NCBI RefSeq assembly: GCF_001244545.1
Contig: NZ_LN852696.1
Location: forward strand, 310,001-374,000
DNA from: Candidatus Stoquefichus sp. SB1
GTDB taxonomy: Bacteria; Bacillota_I; Bacilli_A; Erysipelotrichales; Coprobacillaceae
Direction: 5' to 3'
Length of the DNA: 64,000 nucleotides
Positions 13,591 to 15,514 of the stretch are shown in pieces. The stretch's first letter is position 1, and the number at the start of each line of letters is the position of its first letter. Below the pieces are notes generated by a model. That model saw nothing but the letters and a program-made list of their open reading frames with translations, made no database searches and was not told the DNA's origin. Made by a program: the position numbers and the translations under genes.

Positions 13591-13941
13591 ATGATAGACT
13601 TGACTAGTTTTTCTACAGTAAATGGTGATCAGTTTAACTACGTTAAACAAGAATCATACACTCATTTACACATAGTAATTAGAGTATGGAAAATGATATA
13701 CGATAAAGGAGCTATATCAATTTATGGAAACATGAATGGATATGGATACTTTGGGATAATTAGATATGATAAATATGGTGGAATGAATATAGATACAATT
13801 TTTGGATCGGGAATGAGTTTAGCATATGGTGGATTAGAGGAAGATGGAGAAATTGTAAGAATTGTGCTTAATGTAAGACAATATTCAGTTTATTCTATGC
13901 AAGGAAATGATCCGTTTGAAGTTGCTCGTACAACCGGTTAA
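13591..13941 (+). CDS. Short beta-rich tip ORF 1 of the array
   Basis: About 116 residues from the ATG at 13591, or from the TTG at 13600, which aligns better with its relatives. No ribosome site lies at the usual distance. It is related by eye to ORFs 4 and 6 of the array: the shared blocks are TSFSTVNGDQFNY, THLHIVI, a central ISIYGNMNGYGYFGII and a terminal VRQYSVYS. It is beta-rich and has no signal peptide or enzyme motif. It probably represents a receptor-binding tip domain, either as a separate subunit or a silent cassette. Confidence 0.5.
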   Translation: MIDLTSFSTVNGDQFNYVKQESYTHLHIVIRVWKMIYDKGAISIYGNMNGYGYFGIIRYDKYGGMNIDTIFGSGMSLAYGGLEEDGEIVRIVLNVRQYSVYSMQGNDPFEVARTTG

Positions 13942-13966
13942 TCTATCATAAAGCTATTGAGTTAAA

Positions 13967-14287
13967 ATGATAAATTATATGACAATTGATGGTAGAAGAA
14001 TATATGATATTCAATCATATGATAAAACATCAACAACTATAAGAGTAGGAAGATACGCTCTTGGTATACGTGCTTCAGTATTTGTCTTTGGGACATATGG
14101 AATTTGTGGAATCATCTATATTGATGATTCATCTAATGGTAAAGGGATTACATACTATCCCTTAAGTGGACAGGTGTTAACGATATCCGTTACTCGAAAT
14201 GAACGTGAATACATAGAATTTAGTTTATATAACTTGGGAATATGGGGCACATATACTTTTATAGGATGTAACTGTTATTTTGTCTAA
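13967..14287 (+). CDS. Short beta-rich tip ORF 2 of the array
   Basis: A 106-residue ORF starting 25 nt after ORF 1 stops, with no ribosome site upstream of MINYMTIDGRRIY. The pattern (SVFVFGTYGICGIIYIDD, then PLSGQVLTISVT and YNLGIWGTYTF) resembles ORF 5 and, more distantly, the others, suggesting one roughly 100-residue beta-sandwich fold. It ends in NCYFV. The function is inferred only from location in the fibre region. Confidence 0.45.
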   Translation: MINYMTIDGRRIYDIQSYDKTSTTIRVGRYALGIRASVFVFGTYGICGIIYIDDSSNGKGITYYPLSGQVLTISVTRNEREYIEFSLYNLGIWGTYTFIGCNCYFV

Positions 14288-14315
14288 TCTCTCTTTCAAG
14301 ATAGCAAATAAAATT

Positions 14316-14462
14316 ATGAATAGTTTTGAAACGCGTGGGTTCGTTGAACACACACACACACACACACACACACACACACACACACACACATTTTTACGAA
14401 TGTTATCTTTTATGGAAGGAGGACATGTAGTCCTTCTTCTCAAGAAGGGTGGTGTCGGCTAG
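14316..14462 (+). CDS. Tip ORF 3, carrying a (CA)n tract; candidate phase-variable ORF
   Basis: A 48-residue ORF starting 28 nt after ORF 2 and stopping 25 nt before ORF 4, so it obeys the same linker rule as its neighbours. It opens MNSFETRGFVEH, like ORF 6 (MTNFEFDVGF), then the microsatellite encodes a His-Thr repeat, then FLRMLSFMEGGHVVLLLKK. With one CA unit fewer, the frame instead ends in a TGA overlapping the ATG of ORF 4 (ATGA at 14488-14491). With one unit more it stops at 14428. It may be a degenerate cassette or a translational switch. Confidence 0.4.
   Translation: MNSFETRGFVEHTHTHTHTHTHTHTFLRMLSFMEGGHVVLLLKKGGVG
14348..14390. repeat. (AC)21 dinucleotide microsatellite
   Basis: A perfect 43-bp alternating A/C tract in the middle of the tail-fibre tip array. 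Tracts of this length are rare in bacteria and slip readily during replication. It lies 11 codons into a short ORF, so each 2-bp change alters the downstream frame. Confidence 0.97.
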
Positions 14463-14487
14463 GTAAACATTCGACACATGATAGATT

Positions 14488-14832
14488 ATGACAAGTTTTT
14501 GTACAGTGGATGGATATAAATTTGATTACTTAGCAAATGGGTCTAATACTCATCTTCATATAGTTATTTATTTTCCAAATATGATACGTGATAAAGGTAG
14601 TATGCTTATCTATGGAAATATGAATGGTAGTCTGTATTTAGGTATTATTGGATATAACAAAAATGGTTCAGCTAGTATTAGCCACATTGTTGGGACAGGA
14701 TGCAGCATTAATAGTTCTGGACTTGAATCTGAGAATGGTGTGACATGGATAAGAATTATATTGAATATTAATCAATATAGTGCTTATGGAATATTATGCG
14801 TTGATCCATTTGAAACTGCACATACAGCATAA
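14488..14832 (+). CDS. Short beta-rich tip ORF 4 of the array
   Basis: A 114-residue ORF, clearly homologous to ORF 1: TSFCTVDGYKFDYL, THLHIVIYFPNMIRDKGSM, LIYGNMNGSLYLGIIGYNKN and NQYSAYGILCVDPFETA all have counterparts there. There is no ribosome site. The upstream DNA shares ATGATAGA with ORF 1, but a one-base length difference puts that ATG out of frame here. GTGTCG (14452-14457) and CGACAC (14472-14477) form an inverted repeat just ahead. It is likely an alternative tip domain. Confidence 0.5.
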   Translation: MTSFCTVDGYKFDYLANGSNTHLHIVIYFPNMIRDKGSMLIYGNMNGSLYLGIIGYNKNGSASISHIVGTGCSINSSGLESENGVTWIRIILNINQYSAYGILCVDPFETAHTA

Positions 14833-14859
14833 TATATTACAATGTTTATCTAGAAAATT

Positions 14860-15153
14860 ATGGAAAATTTTAATTTTAATGTAATAACAAAAGTTGAGTT
14901 TAACAATAACTATATTTTTAATATTTCTTTACCAAATGATACAAATTACAGAAATGTATTTTTGGTAGCAGTAGAAGGAAATGTTAATGTCTTCAATGTG
15001 TTTGATGTGGTTTTTGTTAATAATAGTGAAGTCAAACGAGTACTACATTTGGCAGATACTGCTAACTATATTACTTATTCTATAAGTGGACAAAATCTTG
15101 TTTTAAAATCCACAACACTATGGAGTTATGGATTTTGTATCAGAGCCGATTAA
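14860..15153 (+). CDS. Short beta-rich tip ORF 5 of the array
   Basis: A 97-residue ORF starting 27 nt after ORF 4, with no ribosome site before MENFNFNVITKVEF. It shows strands such as VFLVAVEGNVNVFNVFDVVF, then YSISGQNLVLKSTTLWSYGF, which align loosely with ORF 2 (PLSGQVLTISV). It has no cysteine-rich or enzymatic motif. Its role is inferred from membership in the array. Confidence 0.45.
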   Translation: MENFNFNVITKVEFNNNYIFNISLPNDTNYRNVFLVAVEGNVNVFNVFDVVFVNNSEVKRVLHLADTANYITYSISGQNLVLKSTTLWSYGFCIRAD

Positions 15154-15178
15154 GACACCACACTACATAAATAATAAT

Positions 15179-15514
15179 ATGACAAATTTTGAATTTGATG
15201 TTGGCTTTATAAAAAGTCCGGGTTGTTTGAATACAACTGGTGATAAAATTCAAATTGAATTAAATTTTATAAATAGTGATAAAGCAACTGTTATTGTGTT
15301 TGGCGATCACAATGGATCACAATTTATAGTTATGATAACAGTCTGGTATATTGATATGCACTGTACAATTCAAAATATAATTGGATCATTAGGAGTTGCT
15401 TCAGTTAGTAAAACAGCTGATGGAAATATTGTGTTAAGATGTAACACAAATAAATATGGAACGTGTACAGTAATTGCAAGCGTTCCAATCAATTATGTTA
15501 TTTTTGCAAATTAG
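15179..15514 (+). CDS. Short beta-rich tip ORF 6 of the array
   Basis: A 111-residue ORF starting 25 nt after ORF 5 at MTNFEFDVGF. The same frame is open back to an ATG at 15128 that would overlap ORF 5, but the start at 15179 obeys the linker rule. It lacks a ribosome site. The core VIVFGDHNGSQFIVMI aligns with IYGNMNG blocks of ORFs 1 and 4. It is the last ORF before the lysis genes. Confidence 0.45.
   Translation: MTNFEFDVGFIKSPGCLNTTGDKIQIELNFINSDKATVIVFGDHNGSQFIVMITVWYIDMHCTIQNIIGSLGVASVSKTADGNIVLRCNTNKYGTCTVIASVPINYVIFAN

Follow-up and report, generated by a model that had tools for sequence, protein, structure and literature searches.

The window, a 64,000-nucleotide stretch of Candidatus Stoquefichus sp. 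SB1 (contig NZ_LN852696.1, positions 310,001 to 374,000), contains six small ORFs between a DUF859/phrog_372 tail gene (11967-13442) and a holin gene (15551-16018). As a preliminary description of the locus stated, the stop-to-start gaps of these ORFs are 25, 28, 25, 27 and 25 nt, and the linkers lack a Shine-Dalgarno (SD) sequence; the longest match to AAAGGAGGTGA upstream of ORF4, ORF5 and ORF6 is 0 nt, and an SD core is present at 34 of the 44 other window starts tested. The array begins further upstream than that description placed it, with a second leader (13453-13578) that has a good SD. Moreover, ORF3 (14316-14462), earlier counted among the beta-rich proteins, is instead a short leader with an (AC)21.5 repeat, and its architecture is homologous to that of leaders in tens of other phages. 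The best reading of the sequence is that the real unit is a pair of nested three-way translational switches, not six plain ORFs. In what follows, the small ORFs governed by a leader are termed cassettes, and the linkers after cassettes 1, 2 and 3 are termed alpha, beta and gamma.

In array 1, on the plus strand, leader 1 (13441-13578) comprises the SD AGGAGAAGAGAAATG (13441-13455), with AGGAG as its own SD, and the leader ORF at 13453-13578. A degenerate repeat, TCGGAGCAAGGG, lies at about 13484-13495, the place equivalent to a G10 tract in the sister species G033. Downstream of it are an early stop in the third frame (13538-13540), a mid stop (13576-13578) and a late stop (13605-13607). The leader also holds a beta site, CTATAGAAAGAGAG (13553-13566), complementary to linker 2; an SD-mid, AAAGAGAGGTGA (13559-13570); and an alpha site, CTTAATAGCTTT plus ATGATAGA (13574-13598), which encloses the mid stop and is complementary to linker 1. 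Cassette 1 is ORF1 (13591-13941), which probably starts at ATG 13591 or at TTG 13600, the latter aligning with the ATG of ORF4. Linker 1 (alpha, 13942-13966, TCTATCATAAAGCTATTGAG...) separates it from cassette 2, ORF2 (13967-14287), and linker 2 (beta, 14288-14315, CTCTCTTTCAAGATAG...) separates ORF2 from ORF3. The G tract of leader 1 is lost, so that array 1 may be fixed on ORF2, the cassette to which its present frame points, and array 2 may be silent in the window unless the frame of leader 1 changes.

Array 2, also on the plus strand, starts with ORF3 (14316-14462), which is both the third option of array 1 and, as leader 2, the switch of array 2. Leader 2 has no SD of its own, as expected for a third option. 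Its simple sequence repeat spans 43 nt (14348-14390) and encodes HTHTHT. Beyond the repeat lie SD-early, GGAAGGAGGAC (14414-14424), and a beta site (14425-14456) made up of ATGTAGT, with the early stop (14428-14430) inside it, an SD-mid hairpin (14432-14448) and GTGGTGTC. A further hairpin, GTGTCG-loop-CGACAC (14452-14477), carries in its loop the mid stop TAG (14460-14462) and the alpha site CTAGGTAAACATT (14459-14471). Cassette 1, ORF4 (14488-14832), has an ATG that overlaps the late stop TGA of the leader (14489-14491). It is followed by the alpha linker (14833-14859), in which AATGTTTATCTAG (14841-14853) is complementary to 14459-14471, and by cassette 2, ORF5 (14860-15153), to which leader 2 points at 21.5 repeats. 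The beta linker (15154-15178), in which GACACCACACTACAT (15154-15168) is complementary to 14425-14431 and 14449-14456, leads to cassette 3, ORF6 (15179-15514). SD-mid and SD-early are thus separated from the start codons of ORF5 and ORF6 by 400-750 nt. Directly upstream of the AC tract, most leaders have a small hairpin-like motif (AGCCTTGAGGCT, ACGCGTGGGTTCGT), for example at 14330-14347 in the window and in L077 and L093, which might promote slippage or aid initiation.

Related loci are organized in the same way. In G033, a sister species in the same genus, the same place is occupied by a G10 leader and three small ORFs, two of which are orthologous to ORF1 and ORF2. The two linkers are conserved better than the ORFs between the window and G033. 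The complement of linker 1 lies in the leader, immediately ahead of ORF1, and a compensating exchange of A-U for G-C in this match separates the two species. Cassette content thus differs among relatives (three cassettes in the sister species), and the ORFs are neither conserved single-copy genes in all relatives nor pieces of one frameshifted gene, the two readings that had been set against the preliminary description. A second relative, G035, has two chained leaders (locus L040), one carrying (AC)9 and the other G9; small ORFs follow both, and their linkers are complementary to the leader to which they belong. A leader again follows an ORF5-like cassette in G004, of the same family (L358, contig C117); the leader, MKKMKHTVACDTHTHTTF..., comes directly after the cassette and forms a further chained array. 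At the DNA level, the match of the window locus to annotated phages is limited to a short stretch around the holin, and a search of Rfam returned no RNA family match.

Viral contigs were scanned for start codons accompanied by an SD and by an AC or G tract, which yielded many homologous leaders. An array was retained if the frames downstream of the repeat terminated at three separate, spaced stops and the last stop marked the beginning of a small ORF. Selection used only the stops and the first start, and complementarity played no part in it; the start of a cassette at the late stop is not independent evidence, because it was required for collection. Together with Firmicute genomes, the viral contigs gave 35 non-redundant three-way arrays (22 in a first set and 13 from later scans), and an AC or G tract is present in all 35. 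The same data set includes simpler arrangements. AC-repeat leaders in other phages (L068, L078, L086, L087, L091 and L100) are coupled to a single large ORF and represent a plain on/off version related to the three-way switch. The scan of genome contigs also found tens of short leaders of the form 'M..SLEAVHTHTHTH' with an SD and (AC)n in metagenome-assembled genomes of uncultured Clostridia, several per genome (L223-L337). These are mostly simpler, lacking the three-stop pattern, and may constitute a large family of phase-variable upstream ORFs of a simple kind.

The shared architecture bears on whether the locus consists of decaying tail-gene fragments with chance features. The lost G tract of leader 1 in the window and the lack of a protein-family match for ORF3 are what decay would predict; however, the comparative data already contradict it, with one architecture common to 35 non-redundant arrays, intact ORFs and covarying pairs, and such decay is barely credible.

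Complementarity between linkers and leaders was measured across the arrays. A repeat search with default seeds missed these long-range complementarities, whose arms are interrupted; they were spotted by eye and then subjected to permutation. The score was that of the best local RNA helix which the 34 nt downstream of cassette 1 (alpha), cassette 2 (beta) or cassette 3 (gamma, as a control) could form with each of two leader regions, and own leaders were compared with swapped leaders in 5000 permutations per test. In the first set of 22 arrays, alpha pairs with the mid-stop region of its own leader at z 7.9 and beta with the early-stop region at z 7.7, values reached by none of 5000 permutations in either case, whereas the gamma control gives z 0.1 and -0.3. 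The 13 new arrays replicate this result (alpha-mid z 5.9, beta-early z 4.4, 0 of 5000 each, gamma about -0.3). Alpha also scores to some extent with the early region (z 3.5 in the first and 3.9 in the new set), partly because the early and mid regions overlap, and the mid region gives no signal with beta (z 1.0 and 1.2).

The helices are also specific in position. The beta helix directly adjoins the early stop in 16 of 22 arrays, and in 17 of the 22 the alpha helix is no more than 20 nt from the mid stop; helices are weak or not clear in some arrays (L080, L199 and, for alpha, L077). The sequences differ from one linker pair to the next and have no core in common. In helix families aligned by hand, both partners changed in 8 of 81 pairs, as in ATGTAG/CTACAT versus GCGTAA/TTACGC, and 6 of 276 cells were unpaired. 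The constant spacing of 25-28 nt is not due to chance, since the linkers hold sequence complementary to the upstream leader.

The SDs missing from the linkers are found in the hairpins of the leader, one before each stop. Across the arrays, SDs precede most leader stops, and the starts of cassettes 2 and 3 have only 0-4 nt of SD match ahead of them; in other arrays, the leader's own SD measures 4-9 nt. When leaders are folded alone, the mean pairing of the early and mid SDs is 0.98 and 0.91, compared with 0.53 for ordinary genes of the window (p 1e-11 and 3e-9, respectively). These observations weigh on a conventional explanation, that the repeat is a plain on/off switch and that all downstream ORFs are translated serially by ordinary translational coupling, with reinitiation across about 25 nt. 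The gaps are indeed short and regular, the linkers lack SDs, and on/off leaders with one large gene occur in the same data set (L078, L086, L087). However, coupling leaves unexplained the complementarity of linkers to the leader at frame-specific stops, its absence after cassette 3, and the presence before leader stops of extra SDs that would serve no gene. Serial coupling is accordingly an unlikely account of the arrays.

Distances across the beta helix fit the needs of initiation. Taken as SD-to-helix plus helix-to-AUG, the beta spacing between SD and AUG falls within 8-14 nt in 14 of the 16 arrays where it could be measured, most often at 11 or 12, and both values for array 2 of the window are 12; a shared ribosome-binding site formed by the helix would require such phasing. 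The effective spacing across alpha helices is scattered, because many of them are in two parts with a hairpin between. The third option of L040 is a second leader, leader B, whose SD is hidden in a local hairpin (-11.1 kcal/mol) by an anti-SD within the beta linker. The same linker pairs with leader A at -26.7 kcal/mol; since the hiding anti-SD lies in the pairing linker, pairing with leader A should switch the third option on.

The same features bear on the choice between RNA helices and DNA-level cassettes. The preliminary description had proposed silent cassettes that recombine into an expressed gene, and linkers and leaders are real inverted repeats that flank the ORFs and could act as recombination sites inverting or moving ORFs into an expressed position. 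The repeats, however, contain G.U pairs, their arms are interrupted by bulged local hairpins, and their SD and AUG distances are fixed, which fits RNA helices better than recombination sites. Furthermore, orientation is identical in all arrays seen, and inversion would leave no expressed gene. Recombining cassettes are for these reasons a very improbable explanation. The other option in that description, an unusual translational mode, is supported.

The arrays are probably translational selectors of three positions, driven by slippage and specifying one small tail-tip protein at a time. In the proposed mechanism, replication slippage in the AC or G tract would shift the reading frame of the leader, and the three frames after the repeat would stop at three places, early, mid and late. 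In the late frame, the whole leader would be translated, and ribosomes would stop on the start codon of cassette 1, beside its SD. In the mid frame, the stop in or beside the hairpin would open the mid SD, to which pairing of linker alpha would bring the AUG of cassette 2. In the early frame, a stop further upstream would open the early SD, and pairing of linker beta would bring the AUG of cassette 3. SDs not in use would stay shut in hairpins, and ribosomes passing through a site would melt its helix; transit and hairpins together would make the choice exclusive. In vivo formation of the helices, initiation at the split site and exclusivity of expression are inferences from the comparative sequence data. 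Since the third cassette can itself be a leader, switches could be chained, and in the window array 1 would offer ORF1, ORF2 or leader 2, and leader 2 in turn ORF4, ORF5 or ORF6. It is likely, at somewhat lower confidence, that such selectors form a widespread class in Firmicute phages, in which each frame of a hypermutable leader leads to a different host-binding protein through a split ribosome-binding site, and which can be chained.

Repeat length varies among close relatives. At least seven homologous pairs with identical or nearly identical flanks differ in it, including L075/L102 (G8/G9, a three-way array), L064/L076 (AC10/AC9) and L068/L100 (AC17/AC16); lengths of G tracts in assemblies can be sequencing errors, to which AC lengths are less prone. 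The pair L040 and L096 was considered as a repeat-length variant and rejected, as both have the same length. No viral contig yielded a strain variant of the repeat in the window itself. At present, 17 of the 35 arrays are in the early frame, 12 in the mid frame and 6 in the late frame, and both leaders of the window are in the mid frame, pointing to ORF2 and ORF5.

The ORFs of the window, including ORF3, match no tail family or other protein family, but cassettes at the equivalent place in other arrays match Gp10_C (baseplate, 1.9e-28), a tail fibre (2.5e-11) and a minor tail protein (2.4e-6), and the gene after the array is often a holin, as in the window. Similarity among the window ORFs had been reported more broadly than alignment bears out: ORF1 and ORF4 are 51% identical, whereas ORF6 shares only a weak 21% with ORF1, and the resemblance of ORF2 and ORF5 is likewise weak (25% identity in a gappy alignment). 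Within one array, the first dozen residues of the cassettes are 29% identical, versus 11% between arrays, and residues 31-80 are only 8% identical. We infer from this pattern that the shared N-terminus would be a common dock for interchangeable ends. The window genes look like interchangeable tail-tip proteins; the previously suggested mixed tail tip does not agree with three frames that point to one cassette each. ORF4 has an identical counterpart in Caudovirales sp. ct7oE3, an uncharacterised protein, and a protein search of viral contigs found no relatives of ORF4. Its predicted structure is an all-beta model of low confidence (pLDDT 60). The best PDB match was T4 gp9 (Z 6.6, rmsd 3.9, 98 residues), and no claim of fold is made because this Z lies within 1 of that of an unrelated Ig-type fold.

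The components of the proposed selector (slippage, leader attenuation and RNA looping) are known. Phase variation by simple sequence repeats operates at the contingency loci of Neisseria, Haemophilus and Campylobacter (reviewed in PMC11868660), where it mostly turns one gene on or off. Those loci likewise have a slippage-prone dinucleotide or homopolymer tract in a reading frame and change frame reversibly; here, unlike there, the tract sits in a leader apart from the switched genes, and each of the three frames appears to be productive for a gene of its own. A term search within a recent phase-variation review returned no phage tail example.

Leader-peptide translational attenuation of the erm type relies on the position of the ribosome on a leader ORF to decide which hairpin holds the downstream SD. 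The arrays resemble it in having a short leader ORF with its own SD and a downstream SD sequestered in a hairpin. They differ in that repeat length takes the place of an antibiotic or amino acid as input, in having three outputs, and in that the SD remains in the leader while the AUG would be brought over hundreds of nt. By analogy, stop codons appear to play the part that stalling plays in attenuation. In genes 25 and 38 of phage T4, an intervening RNA hairpin brings the SD and the start codon together, and there too RNA pairing shortens the SD-AUG distance; in the arrays, however, the loop would span one or two entire genes, and different SDs would be served by different AUGs. DNA inversion underlies the variation of tail fibres through Mu Gin and P1 Cin. 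The diversity-generating retroelement of BPP-1 varies the host-binding part of the phage (PMC8008677). As in these systems, the part that varies would be the host-binding one; unlike them, the arrays would need no recombinase or reverse transcriptase, and selection appears to be translational. No description of a selector that assigns three frames to three genes was found in the open-access full-text literature, and papers beyond it may exist.

If the proposed selector operates, it would be a new multi-way choice in translation, in which three frames serve as addresses and the SD and start codon lie on separate parts of the mRNA. It would explain tail-tip variation in phages without invertases or retroelements, as well as annotated strings of tiny genes without ribosome sites. 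The stock of a single phage would be a mixture of host-binding types, which bears on the host range of gut phages, and chained selectors would give a prophage population pre-made alternative host ranges. The mechanism could also serve as a compact synthetic three-way switch.

Elsewhere in the window, two near-duplicate genes of 275 and 274 aa lie on the minus strand (3947-4774 and 4932-5756), before the tape-measure-like gene and opposed to the direction of the tail operon; their second halves are nearly identical. Two adjacent overlapping ORFs at 22356-24328, also on the minus strand, resemble by eye a broken ISL3-type transposase.
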